Assembly: GCA_012840385.1 (NCBI GenBank)
Contig: DULK01000010.1
Location: forward strand, 1 to 42,911
DNA length: 42,911 nt
Reading direction: 5' to 3'
DNA from: Syntrophomonadaceae bacterium
Lineage (GTDB): Bacteria > Bacillota > DSM-12270 > Thermacetogeniales > Thermacetogeniaceae
Shown here: positions 3,834 to 41,602 of the stretch, in pieces
Layout of the letters: each line of letters opens with the position of its first letter
Position numbering within the stretch: position 1 is the first letter of the stretch
Translations under genes and position numbers: made by a program
The notes under the pieces: model-generated
Seen by the model: the letters and a program-made list of their open reading frames with translations, nothing else
Database searches by the model: none
What the model was told of the DNA's origin: nothing

Positions 3834-4182
3834 GTGCGCCCGGCACGGGCGTTAACCTGATGGTGAAAGTCCACTGCAGGCGAGGCAGCACCAGTCTGCT
3901 AGCCGAAGGCAAGGGTGTCCATCGCGAGGCGGAATCCGAAGGAAGCCGGAGGCAAACCCCCGAGCCGAGGAACACGAACCTCAAGCGAGGCTGGCTTATC
4001 CGGGCGAGTCTGCTAGACAAGATAAAGCCCTATGCTATCAAGGGATAAGTGAGTAAATGAGGCGGTTGTGGGGGGAAAGTTATCGCCCTTACCCGGGGAG
4101 GCCTGCCGGATAAGCCAGGCAAAGCTGGTAACCCGGGCCGAGAGGTCCGGCTGAGCCGGCAGGAGTCAGCAGAGGGCATAGT
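3834..4182 (+). ncRNA. 5' ribozyme part of the outer group II intron
   Basis: It begins GTGCGCCCGGCACGGGCG and continues TTAACCTGATGGTGAAAGTCC, the typical start of domain I in bacterial group II introns. The segment ends at GTCAGCAGAGGGCATAGT, which in related introns lies just before the intron-encoded protein. A second intron begins exactly there. The 5' exon ends with a terminator hairpin, the kind of target that group IIC introns prefer. Confidence 0.65.
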
Positions 4183-4516
4183 GTGCGCTGAGCAGCGCAA
4201 TCGTCGGGTGGGTTAAAGTCCCACTGGTGCTCGGATGCGGGGCACCATATCCAAAGGCGGGGGTAATGCCTCGTCGGCCTGGCGTCAGCCGGGAGGGCAG
4301 GGTGTCTCTCGTGAGGGAGAATCCGAAGGGCATGCGGAGAAATTCCGGGCCGTAGTCGACGAGACGAACCGGTCGGCCAAAGATGGGGAAAGGTCGTGCC
4401 AGCACTATGGAGGCGAAGGCATTACGCATCCGCCCCATCGCACCAAGGTGTTTGCGGACGGCACGGAATGGAAGACGATTACGTGACCTCAGGAGAACTC
4501 GCCAGGTTCACCAAAG
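4183..4516 (+). ncRNA. 5' ribozyme part of the inner group II intron
   Basis: A second intron-like 5' end (GTGCGCTGAGCAGCGC) is followed by AATCGTCGGGTGGG and TTAAAGTCCCACT. This again resembles the first domain I stems and the conserved AAAGTCC segment. It leads into the reverse transcriptase frame starting at 4517. Its domains V and VI are not found, because the downstream side is interrupted near 5514. Confidence 0.6.
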
Positions 4517-26861: not shown

Positions 26862-27515
26862 TTATTCAATTCGCAGGGCGGCTTCCGCCAGCAGGGCTTC
26901 AGCCCATAGTTTCACCCATTCCGGTATGTTCCGTTGGATCGGGGTAGCAGCTTGAATTATCGCCTCGTTGATGTAAAACTGAGGAGGTGTTGCACCTGTC
27001 TCGTTCGCTGCCGGGTTTACACCGGTATTCTGGATGAAGGCGAGCACCCGTTTTATATATTCCCGAGTCTCCCTGTAAGGAGGTATACCTCCGTATCTTT
27101 GCACTGCGCCTGGCCCGGCGTTGTAAGCTGCGAGAGCTAGCCTGACGTCTCCTTGAAACCGGTCAAGCAGGGAACGCAAATACCTGGCGGCACCGAAAAT
27201 GTTCTGGGCAGGATTAAAGGGGTCCGTTACCCCCAGCGATCTCGCCGTACCCGGCATCAGTTGCATAATCCCCTGGGCACCGGCCCGGGACACCGCTTGG
27301 GGGTTGAAGCCCGATTCTGCCCAGGCAATGGCTTTCAATAGGGCCGGGGGAACCTGGAACTGCTGCCCCGCTGCCTGGAACAGGTGGTCGAAGGCATTCT
27401 TGCCTTGTGTAAAAGCCGCCTCAAGTTTCCCCATAAAATCGCCGGAAGCCCTTTTTACAGCTCTCTGCTCTAAAGCGGACCCATTTATCGGAGCACCTAT
27501 CTCCTTGACATTCAT
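26862..27515 (-). CDS. Soluble lytic murein transglycosylase (SLT domain)
   Basis: The 217-residue protein cleaves the MurNAc-GlcNAc bond of peptidoglycan to give anhydro ends. The SLT domain occupies about 50-165: the catalytic Glu is in [16 protein letters not shown], followed by [35 protein letters not shown] and [20 protein letters not shown]. No signal peptide is predicted by eye, so it may be spore- or flagellum-associated or exported by another route. AGAGAGGTCC precedes the ATG. It is a lone gene next to a long non-coding region. Confidence 0.88.
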
Positions 27516-27736
27516 GGCAGGACCTCTCTGATTTTTTTATTTTAATTTTCTGCTGAAACCGGAATTCCTTTAATCACTATTAAAATCTCTTCGGGATACA
27601 ATAAACCGATTTGACAGCGGTTTGTGTTATGGCGGGCTTTTCTGGTAAAGATAAATAAAGCAGAACAAAGCCTTCTTAACAGGTAACAAGCGATAGAGAA
27701 GATACAAAAAGAAGATGAATAATGTCAATTCAGGTA

Positions 27737-27765
27737 TTGACGTTTTAAAAATGGTTTGCTATTAT
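27737..27765 (+). promoter_or_regulatory. Strong SigA-type promoter for a putative small RNA
   Basis: TTGACG (27737-27742), a 17-base spacer and TATTAT (27760-27765). No gene follows before the terminator at 27876-27927. Confidence 0.6.
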
Positions 27766-27771
27766 TCTGAC

Positions 27772-27927
27772 GTGAAAGAAATCACAAATTAATCATACGT
27801 TCTCCAGGAAAAAGAAAAGGGAATTATTTAATTCCCCCGAAAGTGATAAAACGCAATCTTAACTTTGAGGCCCCCGAAGCCGCTGGACCCCCCTATTGTT
27901 AAAACATTCCGGCGGCTTCTTTTTTTC
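27772..27927 (+). ncRNA. Putative small RNA 1
   Basis: A transcript of about 155 nt is predicted from the SigA-type promoter to a terminator with stem GAAGCCGC / GCGGCTTC and a seven-T run. It contains a short hairpin (GGGAATT / AATTCCC, near 27819-27836). The segment GAGGCCCCCGAAGCC precedes the terminator and ACCCCCCT lies in its loop. C-rich unpaired stretches of this kind are used by several Firmicute small RNAs to bind ribosome sites. There is no open frame with a ribosome site. Confidence 0.5.
27876..27927 (+). terminator. Terminator of putative small RNA 1
   Basis: GAAGCCGC (27876-27883) pairs with GCGGCTTC (27912-27919), followed by a T-run. The loop holds ACCCCCCT. Confidence 0.7.
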
Positions 27928-28366
27928 TCTCAGTAAACTCTGTTTATAAAGGAGTATATTCTGCATCCAAGTCAAAATTCCTGCTACTCGCTCAAATTTC
28001 CCCCCCAAAAAAATTAAAAAAATGCCAGCTTTCATGCAAGGGCGGTTCACTGGAAAAAGCAAGAAAAAGCAAAATGAACTATAACTATATATTGAGACGG
28101 AGTATGTTGAAATGTTGATAATTGAAGCCGGATATTCAACATCCTGCAGGAAGGGATATTTTCGTAAAATCTAGTTTTCAGGGCGATACTGTCGATTTAA
28201 CCCCGTTTGATGAAGTGCTGTTCGGCTATTGAGGTCAACCGGGTGCGCTGATTGCGGCTGACCGTAGCAGGCCTGATCTAAACGGCATTGTCAAAGAGGA
28301 AGTTTTACGGTATATTTTTAGTATTACAAATAAACTTTGTAGACAATATTTCATCTGGATTTCATT

Positions 28367-28382
28367 TAGCACGAAATTTGCA
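28367..28382 (+). promoter_or_regulatory. Sigma-54 type promoter for putative small RNA 2
   Basis: TAGCAC, five bases, TTGCA: the -24/-12 pattern with correct spacing and one mismatch from TGGCAC-N5-TTGC. It lies about 35 bases before the second hairpin. Confidence 0.55.
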
Positions 28383-28392
28383 TATTTTTAAT

Positions 28393-28474
28393 TGATAGTA
28401 TTACTAAGAGGCCCCCGAAGCCGCTGATTTCCTCCCGCTGGTATTATATACCAGTCACAGCGGCTTCTTTTTTT
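28393..28474 (+). ncRNA. Putative small RNA 2
   Basis: A transcript of about 80 nt is predicted from the sigma-54 promoter. It contains GAGGCCCCCGAAGCC as in small RNA 1. It then forms a 10-bp terminator stem GAAGCCGCTG / CAGCGGCTTC with seven Ts. The large loop holds TTTCCTCCC, complementary to a ribosome-binding site, beside a small inner hairpin CTGGTAT / ATACCAG. The common 5' motif and stem show that units 1 and 2 are related. Confidence 0.5.
28417..28474 (+). terminator. Terminator of putative small RNA 2
   Basis: Perfect 10-bp stem 28417-28426 / 28458-28467, with T-run 28468-28474. Confidence 0.75.
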
Positions 28475-28555
28475 GCCTGGGGCAGATGGGCATTTTCCGG
28501 AGGTTTCCGGTCCGGTTATTCTTTTAATGTGTTTCGAAGTTGATTTCAAAGGTAC

Positions 28556-28571
28556 TGGCATGTTGTTTGCA
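28556..28571 (+). promoter_or_regulatory. Sigma-54 type promoter for putative small RNA 3
   Basis: TGGCAT-gttgt-TTGCA matches the -24/-12 consensus (TGGCAC-N5-TTGCA) with one mismatch and exact spacing. Confidence 0.65.
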
Positions 28572-28581
28572 TTTATTTCAC

Positions 28582-28792
28582 AAAGAGAAATGAAATTTCC
28601 CGGATTTTTGAAGACGAGAGGATTAAAATTCCAGTTCCATTGGGAGAGACTTCGTCATGCTTTACACTGAAAGGAATGGATTAGAACCCCTTCAATAATA
28701 GAATAATCCTAACATAGTCTAGGACCATATCGCCCCCCGGCGCCGGGAAAATCAATCAACTCTTTCAGCCGAGTTTCCCGGCGTTCTTTTTT
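28582..28792 (+). ncRNA. Putative small RNA 3
   Basis: About 210 nt are predicted between the sigma-54 promoter and a terminator at 28741-28792. A C-rich run (CGCCCCCCGG, 28731-28740) directly precedes the stem, echoing the GGCCCCCG of units 1 and 2. A 26-codon frame from 28590 (MKFPGFLKTRGLKFQFHWER, ending RHALH) has only a weak ribosome site, so a small peptide cannot be excluded. Confidence 0.4.
28741..28792 (+). terminator. Terminator of putative small RNA 3
   Basis: Perfect 10-bp stem CGCCGGGAAA (28741-28750) / TTTCCCGGCG (28774-28783), followed by a T-rich run. Confidence 0.75.
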
Positions 28793-29006
28793 ACCAAACT
28801 GGCGGAAGGAAATGCCGAAAACACGGCAGGTTTAACGAAAATACGGAATACGATAAATATACTGTACAGCCTGAAACCGGGGGACCGCCCTGAAAATAAC
28901 CCTTTATTGTCACCCTTAGTACTGCCCGGCCGGCATGAAGTATTATAATGAAAAATGGAGGGAAACTGATTAAATTGTCGAAATATATCCTGAGGAGGTG
29001 TTCGAG

Positions 29007-30668
29007 TTGCCTGAGCACAGGGCTCAATTAATCGAAAAACTCACCGGCGTCAACGCTTCCAAGCGCAATTATTATACGGAATTGAAAGAGAAAATACTGG
29101 AAATTACCAAGCGCAATTCCCAGCTTGAAATATTGAACGAACTTGCCAGGCAGATCAGCATCAACACACCTCTTGATCAAATCGTCGGTGACGTGAGTAC
29201 CCGCGTCAAGGAAATCATACCCTTTGACCGGGTCAGCCTCCTTACTTTTCGTGACGAAAAGCTGTATCTCAATTGTTTTAACCCGCCGGACAACGTTTGT
29301 TTCACGGGTATGGAAATTACCCCGGAACGGGGGAAAGCCCTTTGGGACGTGAAGGAAAAACGCCAGCAGCAGGTCTGGGAAATTGGGGCAGGCATCGAGG
29401 ATCTCCACCTGGCCGGGTTGGGCCTCAAGGTTGCCGTAATCAGCCCGTTGTTCAGCCAGAATAAGGTCTTCGGACTCTTCGTGGTGGCAAGTACCCGGAG
29501 TCTTGTGTACGACCCGGCCGATCTGACCTTTCTGCAGCAACTCGCCAACCAACTGGCCATCTGTCTTCAGGATCAGGAGTTGTTTGCGGAGGTCACGCGA
29601 GCCAAGGTTGAATGGGAGGCCACCTTTAAAGCCGTGCGGGATCTCATCGTGGTGGTTGATAAGGAGATGCGGGTGTTCCGGTTCAACCTGGCAACTGCTG
29701 AATTCTGCGGCCTTCCCGAGGAGGAAATCGTGGGGAAAAAGTGCTGCGAGATAATCTGCTCCTCAACTGAGCCCTGCGGAGACTGCGCGGTGCGCGAGGC
29801 CTTGCGGACCGGAGAAACCGCCAATACCCAGCACCGCCTGGAGGACGGACGGGTAATGGAACTTCATGCATACCCGGCTTTGTGGCAGGACGAAAAACTG
29901 GGTGTTGTCATCTACGCCAAGGATATTACTGAAAACTTGAAAATGCAGGTTCAGCTTCTTAAAGCGGCACGGCTGGCCGCCCTGGGAGAAATGGCGGCGG
30001 GAGTGGCTCACGAACTGAACACCCCTCTGACGGTGATCATCGGCGATGCCCAGTTGTTGATGCGCAACTTTCCCGCCGATGACAAAAACCAGAAGCTCTT
30101 CGAGGACATCAAAAACTGTGGGCTCCGCTGCAAACAAATCGTGCAGGGCCTGCTTACCTTTTCGCGCCAGGAGCAGTACGTCTTCTATTCCCTTTCTCCC
30201 AACGATGTTGTTGAGGCCGCTCTGAAGCTTGTTACCTACCAGATCGAAACAAACAACATCAAGCTTGATGTTACTTTGGATCCAGGTATTCCCAAGATCG
30301 AGGGGAATGCCCAGCAACTGGAACAGGTACTGGTAAATCTATTGCTTAATGCCGCCCAGTCCTTTGAAGGCAAGGAAGGGAAACGCGAAATACGAGTCCG
30401 GACAGGCTTTGATCGGGATCGCAACCAGGTTTTTATAGAGGTCTCTGATACCGGTCAGGGTATCTCTCCTGAGAATCTGTCGCAGATTTTTGACCCATTT
30501 TTTACTAGCAAGGGGGTTGGAAAAGGGACGGGTCTGGGACTTTCTGTCAGCCTTGGAATTGTTCAGACACACGGTGGAACGATCAGCGTAGAAAGCAGGG
30601 TTGGGGAAGGGAGCACATTTACCGTTTATCTTCCTCCCTTCGAAGGAAGTGATGAGGTAGCTTCTTAG
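29007..30668 (+). CDS. Sensor histidine kinase (GAF-PAS-HisKA-HATPase), NtrB-like
   Basis: This cytoplasmic sensor kinase has about 553 residues and no membrane segments. A short coiled coil (about 25-50) leads to a GAF domain (about 55-190) and a PAS domain (about 205-315). The phospho-acceptor His is in LGEMAAGVAHELNTPLT. The ATPase domain has N-box NLLLNAAQSF, G1 DTGQGI, and GKGTGLGLSVS. The PAS domain carries clustered cysteines (KKCCEIICSSTEPCGDC), which may sense redox or metal state. The TTG at 29007 is preferred because GAGGAGGTG lies 6 bases upstream. It is 31 bases from the sigma-54 activator gene and heads the operon, so it is its cognate kinase. The signal is unknown. Confidence 0.92.
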   Translation: MPEHRAQLIEKLTGVNASKRNYYTELKEKILEITKRNSQLEILNELARQISINTPLDQIVGDVSTRVKEIIPFDRVSLLTFRDEKLYLNCFNPPDNVCFTGMEITPERGKALWDVKEKRQQQVWEIGAGIEDLHLAGLGLKVAVISPLFSQNKVFGLFVVASTRSLVYDPADLTFLQQLANQLAICLQDQELFAEVTRAKVEWEATFKAVRDLIVVVDKEMRVFRFNLATAEFCGLPEEEIVGKKCCEIICSSTEPCGDCAVREALRTGETANTQHRLEDGRVMELHAYPALWQDEKLGVVIYAKDITENLKMQVQLLKAARLAALGEMAAGVAHELNTPLTVIIGDAQLLMRNFPADDKNQKLFEDIKNCGLRCKQIVQGLLTFSRQEQYVFYSLSPNDVVEAALKLVTYQIETNNIKLDVTLDPGIPKIEGNAQQLEQVLVNLLLNAAQSFEGKEGKREIRVRTGFDRDRNQVFIEVSDTGQGISPENLSQIFDPFFTSKGVGKGTGLGLSVSLGIVQTHGGTISVESRVGEGSTFTVYLPPFEGSDEVAS

Positions 30669-30699
30669 TGGCTGGCCATACTATTCTGGGGGGGTGAAC

Positions 30700-32199
30700 A
30701 TGGCAGCACGTATCTTGGTAGTGGATGACGAATTGGAGATGGGAAATTTTTTTACCTTCCTGCTTGATGCCAAGGGCCATGAGGTTACAGTTGCGGAAAA
30801 CGGTGCCAAGGCTAGAGAAGCGCTTAAAGAACATTTCCACCTGATTCTGCTGGACCTGAAGCTGCCGGATGCGGACGGCCTCGTGCTTTTGAAGGAAATC
30901 AAGCTTCGCCATCCCAAAAGCGAAGTTATCGTGATGACCGGCTATTCCACGGTTAAAACAGCAGTCGAAGCAATTCAGTTGGGGGCCTTCGACTATTTGG
31001 AAAAGCCGTTTGACGACCTTGATGCTCTGGAGAAAATCATTGAGAACGCTCTCAACAGATCACTGGCAAAAGACGAGCAGCCTTCTTACGAGACCTCTGC
31101 AAAAAGCAAAGGAGTACTTGAATCCATCGGGTTCGTAACGGGAAAAAGTGAAAAAATGCAGCGCCTGCTTGTGGTTGCGGAAAAATTGGCGCAGAAACAT
31201 ATTACGTTGTTGATCCGCGGTGAAACCGGAACCGGGAAGGAGGTCCTGGCGCGCTACATCCACTCCGTAAGCCCCCGTTCTGCCCAGCCCTTTCTGGCCA
31301 TCAACTGCGGTGCTTTGCCGGAGAACCTGCTCGAAAGCGAGCTTTTTGGCCATGAAAAAGGGGCCTTTACCGGGGCCGGGAGCCAGCATAAAGGGATTTT
31401 TGAACTTGCCCATCGGGGGACGCTTTTTCTCGATGAGATCGGAGAGGCGAACCTGTCGATTCAAGTCAAACTGCTCCGGGTTCTGGAAACCGGGGAGATA
31501 TTCCGGGTCGGTGGAGAGAAACCAATACGTGTGGATACCAGGGTGATTGCGGCCACCAACGCTCCCCTGGAAGAGATGGTGAAAGAAAAGCGGTTCCGGG
31601 AAGACCTTTTTTACAGGCTGGACGTGGTTACCCTGACGGTTCCCCCACTCAGGGAACGACGTGAGGACATCTGCCTTCTTGCCGAGCATTTTCTATCGCG
31701 TCACTACCAGGTAGGAGAGGTTCCCCGTTTGAGCGACGAGGCTATCAGAGCCCTGATGGAATACGACTGGCCGGGAAACGTCCGGGAACTCGCCAACGTT
31801 ATGGCCCAGGTTGCCGCCATGTGCGACGGGCCGGTGGTGCTGAAAGAGCACTTGCCCCGCAAGATTCTGGAGAACATTCCGGGGAGTGTTGCAGCACCGG
31901 CGGTATCCGCCGAAATTGTTGAGTCCGGTAAAAGCAGCGAGCAGAAATGGCTGGGAGAGATAGAGAAGCATCTGCAAGCCTTTGCCGAGCAGGTGGATTT
32001 TAAGCGAGGATTTGAACTTCCCTATTTTCTATCAGAGCTGGACATGCTCATAGCGAGAGCCACGCAGCAGTTGATCAGACGAGCCCTGAAAGAGGCCGAG
32101 GGGCGTTATCCAAAGGCGGCGGAGTGGCTGGGGACAACTCCTCGCGTTCTACGTTATCTAAATAAGGAAAAGCATGTGAAACGGGAGGGGCAGTTGTGA
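30700..32199 (+). CDS. Sigma-54-dependent response regulator (NtrC family)
   Basis: This 499-residue activator has three parts. The receiver domain (about 1-120) has the phosphorylated Asp in LILLDLKLPDADG. The AAA+ domain has Walker A GETGTGKE, the sigma-54 contact loop KGAFTGAGS, Walker B GTLFLDEIGE and the Arg-finger region RFREDLFYRLDVV. The C-terminal Fis-like helix-turn-helix is ALKEAEGRYPKAAEWLGTTP. It would open sigma-54 promoters when phosphorylated by the kinase upstream. Candidate targets are the promoters at 28367, 28556, 35242 and 41372. The ATG at 30700 is used, since the GTG at 30694 is part of the ribosome site. Its stop overlaps the next gene's start. Confidence 0.94.
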   Translation: MAARILVVDDELEMGNFFTFLLDAKGHEVTVAENGAKAREALKEHFHLILLDLKLPDADGLVLLKEIKLRHPKSEVIVMTGYSTVKTAVEAIQLGAFDYLEKPFDDLDALEKIIENALNRSLAKDEQPSYETSAKSKGVLESIGFVTGKSEKMQRLLVVAEKLAQKHITLLIRGETGTGKEVLARYIHSVSPRSAQPFLAINCGALPENLLESELFGHEKGAFTGAGSQHKGIFELAHRGTLFLDEIGEANLSIQVKLLRVLETGEIFRVGGEKPIRVDTRVIAATNAPLEEMVKEKRFREDLFYRLDVVTLTVPPLRERREDICLLAEHFLSRHYQVGEVPRLSDEAIRALMEYDWPGNVRELANVMAQVAAMCDGPVVLKEHLPRKILENIPGSVAAPAVSAEIVESGKSSEQKWLGEIEKHLQAFAEQVDFKRGFELPYFLSELDMLIARATQQLIRRALKEAEGRYPKAAEWLGTTPRVLRYLNKEKHVKREGQL

Positions 32200-34192: not shown

Positions 34193-34214
34193 AAAATAAA
34201 ACTAAATTATGTTG

Positions 34215-34304
34215 GGCAACGGGGAGCTGGAATTTACTCCGGCTGAGAAAGAATCTGGTTCTGACCCGTGGACCTGATCTGGGTAATGCCAGCGTAGGGA
34301 TTGC
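34215..34304 (+). promoter_or_regulatory. TPP (THI-box) riboswitch
   Basis: The conserved core is plain: GGGGAGC, CTGAGA, ACCTGATCTGGGTAATGCC and AGCGTAGGGA, closed by a GCAA / TTGC stem. It should bind thiamine pyrophosphate and control the terminator 29 bases downstream. No thiamine gene follows, so the riboswitch is orphaned. Confidence 0.92.
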
Positions 34305-34332
34305 TTACGACGATTCCTTCAGGTGGATGACA

Positions 34333-35112: not shown

Positions 35113-35241
35113 GCCGGACAGGACAACGGCTCGCTTCGGGACCCGGCACTCATATGCCTATTTAGTTTATCTATAATAAGATTCTGCTGCAAAAAGTTCA
35201 TTTAAGTTCATGAACAGCGGTCTTCTCTAAAACCCGAGATT

Positions 35242-35257
35242 TGGCACGATGTTTGCA
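35242..35257 (+). promoter_or_regulatory. Sigma-54 promoter of the AOR operon
   Basis: TGGCAC-gatgt-TTGCA is an exact -24/-12 match. Transcription would begin near 35268, leaving a leader of about 150 bases before the ferredoxin-subunit gene. Confidence 0.85.
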
Positions 35258-35390
35258 TGGAAAAAAGAATGAATTTTTCTGAAAACAGCTTGGAGGGAGG
35301 AGGTGAGATCAAAGGGGGTTTGATCCATGAGGGTATTGTAGAAAGAGAAAAAAGTGATTACGCGAATTCGAAAAAATGGGGGAGGTGAGT

Positions 35391-41270: not shown

Positions 41271-41371
41271 TATTTAATCATCATGAGTTTTAATAAGCCC
41301 GTACCTCTGGTTTTCATAATATTTCCCTATGTGGGGATGTTATTTTTAGGCATTGGGAGGTTGGACATTAC

Positions 41372-41387
41372 TGGCATGTAATTTGCT
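41372..41387 (+). promoter_or_regulatory. Sigma-54 promoter of the second alcohol dehydrogenase
   Basis: TGGCAT-gtaat-TTGCT has correct -24/-12 spacing and one mismatch in the -24 box. The start near 41398 gives a ~200-base leader before the gene. Confidence 0.75.
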
Positions 41388-41602
41388 AAACACAGTGTGC
41401 GTATGCAAAATTAGTATCTGTTGGGGGGGGTGAAAGACGGGAGCGTTCTTGTTATTGTCGATTAGTGGATTGATGGTAGGTTGGAATGTCTGTGACAGAA
41501 GTGTTTCCTGAAAGAGATAATCCAGGAAACAGGTGGGGGTCCCTACGCCAGGGAAGCTCAAAGATTTAAACAAATTCCAATTCCAAGGAGGTCGAAGGCT
41601 TC

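Follow-up and report, generated by a model that had tools for sequence, protein, structure and literature searches.

The window, i.e. the whole stretch of 42,911 nucleotides that was analysed, contains a gene-free gap from position 27516 to about 28998, which is bordered on the left by a lytic transglycosylase gene (26862-27515, minus strand) and on the right by the gene of a GAF-PAS histidine kinase (28998..30668, plus strand; recognized by Pfam and by homologous N-termini). The true start of the kinase is probably a TTG near 29007, 3' of a GAGGAGG. The next gene encodes a sigma-54-activating response regulator (30694..32199, plus strand), and its Shine-Dalgarno sequence GGGGGGG (30688-30694) is complementary to the loop of the element named unit 1 below. 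Further downstream two sigma-54 promoters could be identified on the plus strand, the perfect site TTGGCACGATGTTTGCAT (35241..35258) 5' of a ferredoxin/aldehyde:ferredoxin oxidoreductase (AOR) operon and CTGGCATGTAATTTGCTA (41371..41388) 5' of an iron-containing alcohol dehydrogenase gene (Fe-ADH). The window also holds a TPP riboswitch (34210-34317, plus strand), which precedes the ferredoxin/AOR region and lies about 1 kb upstream of the perfect promoter, and pieces of group II intron RNA (3918-4205, plus strand), where two D1-D4 families matched side by side. When the whole window was scored for sigma-54 sites, six reached a score of at least 14 against 2.1 expected, and two a score of at least 15 against 0.2 expected. 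The sigma-54-like sites at 28366 and 28555 within the gap are therefore of a quality rarely reached by chance.

An earlier note on this DNA described three small-RNA units of one kind in the gap, two of them under sigma-54 promoters. Its observation that units 1 and 2 share a motif and a terminator is correct. The stretches ACTTTGAGGCCCCCGAAGCCGCTG (27862-27885) and ACTAAGAGGCCCCCGAAGCCGCTG (28403-28426) share 92% identity over their 24 nt and consist of GAGGCCCCCGAAGCCGCTG with flanks that are nearly the same in both units, and an identical GCGGCTTCTTTTTTT ends unit 1 (27912-27926) as well as unit 2 (28460-28474). As each 24-nt stretch is closed by GCGGCTTCTTTTTTT, both units are predicted to form terminator hairpins.

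Unit 1 is preceded by a sigma-70-type promoter (TTGACG-17-TATTAT, 27737..27765, plus strand). Directly 3' of its -10 element lies the palindrome GTGAAAGAAATCAC (27772..27785, not assigned to a strand), followed on the plus strand by a 5' hairpin GGGAATTATTTAATTCCC (27819..27836) and by the core of the unit (27867..27926), which comprises GAGGCCCCCG, the terminator stem (27876-27886/27909-27919) and a U-tract. The core of unit 2 (28408..28474, plus strand) is built in the same way with a stem at 28417-28426/28458-28467 and an inner hairpin at 28437-28455 (plus strand). Its sigma-54 promoter TTAGCACGAAATTTGCAT (28366..28383, plus strand, score 14.4) is placed with about 28 nt between the GC of the -12 element and GGCCCCCG. 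The -24 element reads AG, not GG, which is the weak point of this single site; the site and its spacing recur in related copies of other genera. The C-rich loops were likewise seen as reported, ACCCCCC at 27887-27893 in unit 1 and CCTCCC at 28431-28436 in unit 2, and their C-runs are unpaired in the predicted folds (0.83-1.0).

The family defined here is referred to as the Thermacetogeniaceae GGCCCCCG RNA family and is represented by a covariance model R1 and its refined version R2. Unit 1 scores 75.6 bits with R1 and 72.1 bits with R2, unit 2 71.6 and 69.0 bits, whereby both units are themselves part of the seed alignment behind the models. Both contain the conserved GGCCCCCG, the 11-bp terminator stem and the U-tract which define the family. 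The exact bipartite pattern is found in 12 of the 20 genomes of Thermacetogeniaceae and in none of 101 others, while a reversed control pattern gave no match anywhere in the same genome set. A chance repeat was rejected on the basis of these two results. With R1 (E<=0.1) the element could be identified in 19 of the 20 Thermacetogeniaceae genomes with one to seven copies each, the weakest matches (G010, G014) being probably chance terminators or coding DNA. None was found by R2 at E<=1e-4 under strict filters in 385 other genomes of the phylum. A pattern scan over 84,980 species yielded 28 stretches, and the genuine ones all belong to Thermacetogeniaceae; the 14 stretches from outside the family were rejected as they are without a complementary stem or a U-tract or reach at most 21 bits. 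Viral contigs gave no match to the family pattern.

The earlier note had proposed a covariance model and a search for compensatory changes in relatives as a check, and the outcome is positive. In 37 sequences the 11-bp stem is paired to 98.5%. Two-sided changes occur in 8 of its 11 pairs and amount to 40 cells compared with 10.2 in shuffles, none of 500 shuffles reaching this number; controls with a slid stem gave 0-9 two-sided cells. Conservation also extends to two unpaired parts, GGCCCCCG and the C-rich loop (ACCUCCC or ACCCCCC). A third clear copy on another contig of the window's genome (G000:C40) shows a compensatory C-to-T/G-to-A change in the stem. No family of Rfam 15 matches units 1-3 at the curated gathering score. 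The best loose match, RybB, was discarded since its 20.4 bits are far under the 40 needed, and neither Qrr nor any other match was seen in the Rfam scans of the units. Judged by these comparisons, units 1 and 2 genuinely belong to an undescribed family of predicted short, structured, C-rich RNAs, which is restricted to the Thermacetogeniaceae.

Some further copies are worth mentioning. One contig (G011:C32; L060, L061) carries three family copies within 21 kb, two of which are almost identical to each other, and one copy on it lies close behind a gene adjoining a sigma-54 activator gene. A divergent copy in the window's genome (G000:C93:10518-10586, L066:6519-6587) is found in a formate dehydrogenase-like synteny as in the T. 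phaeum-like genome introduced below. This copy has the loop GGUUACCUCCC and a sigma-54 site, but the 3' arm of its stem holds GGCCCCC, and no U-tract follows immediately.

For unit 3 the analysis did not confirm that it is an element like the other two. It consists of CGCCCCCC, a terminator-like hairpin and a T-run (28724..28797, plus strand) and reaches only 14.4 bits with R2 (E 0.025 in the window) in comparison to 69-72 bits for units 1 and 2. It has no C-rich loop and no counterpart in the relatives, and its membership in the family is doubtful. The sigma-54 promoter CTGGCATGTTGTTTGCAT (28555..28572, plus strand), which was recognized by the window scoring, has an equivalent before the moeB-kinase-regulator operon of relatives. 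Because of this position the site at 28555 is best read as the operon promoter and unit 3 as a leader hairpin: most likely it is the kinase-regulator operon's own promoter, and the hairpin is probably an attenuator in the leader of the kinase operon. Of the two sigma-54-dependent units that had been claimed, unit 2 with its relatives stands, whereas a second small RNA under the 28555 site is not supported.

The members with own promoters fall into two types. Type B includes unit 1 and its orthologues in nine other genomes, and type A, to which unit 2 belongs, is found in nine genomes and has the loop ACCUCCC. The type B loci share a fixed order of TTTGACT-17-TATNNT, which is kept in orthologues of other genera, the palindrome GTGA-N6-TCAC, a hairpin, GAGGCCCCCG and a loop containing five to seven Cs. 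The arms of the 5' hairpin, which is found at the same place in the orthologues, differ between species yet remain complementary. The palindrome is present in all unit 1 orthologues, and its form GTGATTTATTTCACAA occurs exactly only at type B loci in 6 of 8 genomes searched and almost nowhere else. It resembles the operators of Rex and of CRP-family regulators equally well; from the Rex operator consensus TTGTGAANNNNTTCACAA it differs in 3 of 14 positions, and each of the five genomes checked has a Rex gene. The palindrome is a probable repressor operator of a Rex- or CRP-family-like kind. A sigma-54 site precedes unit 2 and each of the nine type A orthologues (scores 13.2-16.4; maximum 16.4), with the type A promoter 27-68 nt before the motif, while the best score upstream of type B is 8.7-10.9, i.e. 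there is none. With unit 2 (14.4) and a copy in G004 (16.4, 120 nt upstream) the sigma-54 class covers five genera. The five genomes that were checked for RpoN and Hfq all have both.

As had been noted for the window, the units adjoin a sigma-54 two-component operon, and this is also the case in the relatives. Type B is located just upstream of the kinase and sigma-54 regulator genes, in part with moeB in front, in eight genomes (the window's as well as G005, G007, G008, G012, G016, G018 and G019, among them Thermacetogenium sp. UBA5472, G007, and Syntrophaceticus schinkii Sp3, G018; a further genome of the set, G002, is Clostridia bacterium isolate 27). Where the contig is long enough, the kinase-regulator genes next to type B run on to AOR genes. 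In the T. phaeum-like genome G005, which we take to be T. phaeum partly from its gene content, type A follows a formate dehydrogenase-like operon, and type B is found about 10 kb further downstream. The genes Tph_c08210-08270 of T. phaeum are induced by ethanol and ethanolamine (PMC6436200), and from gene content and order this cluster appears to be the type A/type B locus of G005.

A gene for a protein of 50-55 amino acids with the motif FPYDD(L/M)YLLYDY (L056:9224-9388 and L058:8740-8901, both minus strand) is convergent with the type A element in every type A genome examined and has a sigma-54 promoter of its own in two. No Pfam match was obtained for this protein family, a gene of which is directly followed by a copy of the RNA element in genus g5.

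The idea that the loops pair with ribosome-binding sites has now first comparative support for the unit 1 orthologues. The type B loop is complementary to the Shine-Dalgarno sequence of the kinase in three genomes (AAGGGGGGU in G016, GAGGGGGGA in G008, GAGGGGGGU in G019) and to that of the regulator in the window (GGGGGGGUG), and a G-run of at least five is kept in 6 of 7 regulator orthologues. AOR and a second alcohol dehydrogenase keep a plain GGAGG. Pairing strength was compared with a background of 512 start regions from sampled stretches, an exploratory comparison in which the start calls were crude and several genes were tried. The type B-kinase pairing beats all 512 background regions in three genomes, two of which share a genus. 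For the regulator the 1.8% level is reached in the window's genome and 3.7% in G005, for Fe-ADH 0.4% and 1.2% in two genomes, while AOR as a control is ordinary (40-81%). The window's own kinase is a poor type B partner, 35% of the background being equally strong. For type A, the pairing tests gave no convincing target; pairing with AOR is moderate (1.4-4.9%, three genomes), and a genome search for TTGGGAGGT plus a start codon served as a further screen for type A targets. A pooled test of G-runs over the whole AOR cluster gave 10/33 versus 60/469 (Fisher p 0.009). As this effect is absent in G005 alone, only gene-level results were used. Taken at this level, the data suggest that in several genomes the type B loop could pair with G-run sites of the adjacent kinase and/or regulator and thus exert feedback.

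The reading of units 1 and 2 as small-RNA genes is upheld by the comparison of genomes, from which the family with its stem and conserved motifs, the putative promoters and the synteny emerge, together with C-rich motifs predicted to be single-stranded. We consider it probable that they are trans-acting small RNAs which block Shine-Dalgarno sequences within a Qrr-like sigma-54 circuit around ethanol and aldehyde oxidation genes. Transcription and start sites, the acting activator and repressor, an involvement of Hfq, the targets and the sign of regulation are what we infer for this circuit. The two units would be paralogous genes for terminator-ended RNAs of about 80-160 nt. These RNAs would block translation by base pairing to G-rich Shine-Dalgarno regions, for which they offer the C-rich loop of the terminator hairpin and, on the 5' side of this hairpin, the single-stranded GGCCCCCG. 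Transcription of unit 2, and likewise of the type A copies in relatives, would be switched on by sigma-54, most likely via the adjacent kinase-regulator pair, to which the neighbourhood of unit 2 points; other apparent targets of this pair are its own operon and the AOR and alcohol dehydrogenase genes. Unit 1 would be transcribed from its sigma-70 promoter, controlled by a repressor that binds the palindrome and possibly senses redox state, and would feed back on the translation of kinase and regulator. In this way the units probably help to control the adjacent sigma-54 regulator genes.

Several observations could also be accommodated by a conserved intrinsic terminator which, together with its C-rich leader, was spread over the genome in copies and does not act in trans. 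With few exceptions the conserved stem is that of a terminator, and several copies in genus g5 and in G000/G001 stand without a promoter of their own directly behind protein genes (coaD, a nucleotidyltransferase/phosphomannomutase gene, a radical-SAM gene and a small-protein gene), and some of them may be plain 3' ends. However, a terminator does not need the invariant unpaired GGCCCCCG nor the CCUCCC/CCCCCC loop, the copy number of 1-7 per genome is low, and the type A and type B loci lie alone in gene-free gaps with own conserved promoters of different kinds, which makes such a dispersed terminator unlikely for them. The position of units 1-3 upstream of the kinase operon on the same strand would also agree with a role as attenuators of this operon in place of free RNAs. 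Such a role is probably right for unit 3, whose promoter matches the operon promoter of relatives. In relatives, however, a spacing of 0.3-0.7 kb that holds a further sigma-54 promoter separates the end of the unit 1 orthologues from the next gene, the gene that follows type A is convergent, and no alternative antiterminator fold is evident; for the elements in general we rate cis-acting leaders somewhat lower still than a dispersed terminator.

Free small RNAs might also act by binding proteins, i.e. by titrating Hfq or another C-rich-binding regulator in a CrcZ-like manner. A short C-rich motif repeated in several copies, the presence of Hfq and sigma-54 control, as in CrcZ, would fit. Each RNA has only one or two C-rich motifs, though, the loops of type A and type B differ, and that of type B matches the G-run ribosome-binding sites of adjacent genes, which leaves protein titration as the least probable of the alternatives. 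Returning to the Shine-Dalgarno-blocking RNAs, a more far-reaching version can be offered only tentatively: a sigma-54 two-component system for ethanol and aldehyde oxidation in syntrophic acetate oxidisers might drive one C-rich small RNA, while a paralogue under redox-type repression might hold down the translation of that kinase and regulator, and two signals would meet in one RNA pair as a Qrr-like circuit in Firmicutes.

The host group comprises acetate-oxidising anaerobes, the Thermacetogeniaceae including Syntrophaceticus schinkii. A conserved small-RNA family of organisms near the energetic limit of life would be a concrete, testable RNA layer over the switching of ethanol and aldehyde oxidation, and since T. 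phaeum and S. schinkii are cultivable, its expression is directly checkable. The claim that sigma-54-driven small RNAs next to a sigma-54 two-component operon are new has to be narrowed, as such an arrangement is known from Qrr1/LuxO of Vibrio (PMC8043402). In the open-access literature we found no description of the present RNAs nor of any sigma-54-driven small RNA in Firmicutes, those found described so far being from outside this phylum. The start-site map of C. difficile assigns non-coding RNAs to SigA, SigD, SigB and sporulation factors (PMC7438776).

Among known systems, the LhrC-type RNAs of Listeria are multicopy C-rich small RNAs under a two-component system (PMC4132741). Several paralogous C-rich RNAs and a two-component system are found here as well, but the sequences are unrelated and the predicted targets are others. 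LhrC-type RNAs are not known to be sigma-54 dependent. CrcZ and CrcY of Pseudomonas are sigma-54-dependent small RNAs activated by the two-component sigma-54 regulator CbrAB; they carry many A-rich Hfq/Crc-binding motifs and act by titration. The sigma-54 dependence and the two-component sigma-54 regulator would be common to both systems, whereas the RNAs described here have one C-rich loop and a predicted Shine-Dalgarno-like target.

The circuit most similar in its layout is that of Vibrio, where the sigma-54-driven Qrr1 is encoded beside the gene of its sigma-54 regulator LuxO and feedback of the small RNA on the regulator is known (PMC8043402). As far as sequences can tell, a sigma-54 promoter and an adjacent sigma-54 response regulator are present here too. 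Both systems have several homologous terminator-ended RNAs with sigma-54 promoters, one copy beside a sigma-54 regulator gene and Hfq, and the feedback known for Qrr is here predicted from complementarity. In contrast to Qrr, there is no relation in sequence or in Rfam, the phylum is another one, the context is metabolic rather than quorum sensing, one subgroup is under a sigma-70 promoter and the C-rich loop is part of the terminator hairpin. RoxS/RsaE and FsrA of Firmicutes direct C-rich unpaired motifs at ribosome-binding sites, and for RoxS a Rex site 3' of the promoter and an action on central redox metabolism are known (PMC8216469, PMC5419742). Such a motif, unpaired in the predicted loop (0.83-1.0) and complementary to the Shine-Dalgarno sequences of kinase and regulator, is also found here, and type B carries its Rex/CRP-like palindrome 3' of the -10 element as RoxS does. 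The present RNAs have no Rfam match, and sigma-54 control is not known for RoxS or FsrA. The Rex-controlled, C-rich RoxS is the nearest functional analogue of the putative type B RNAs.
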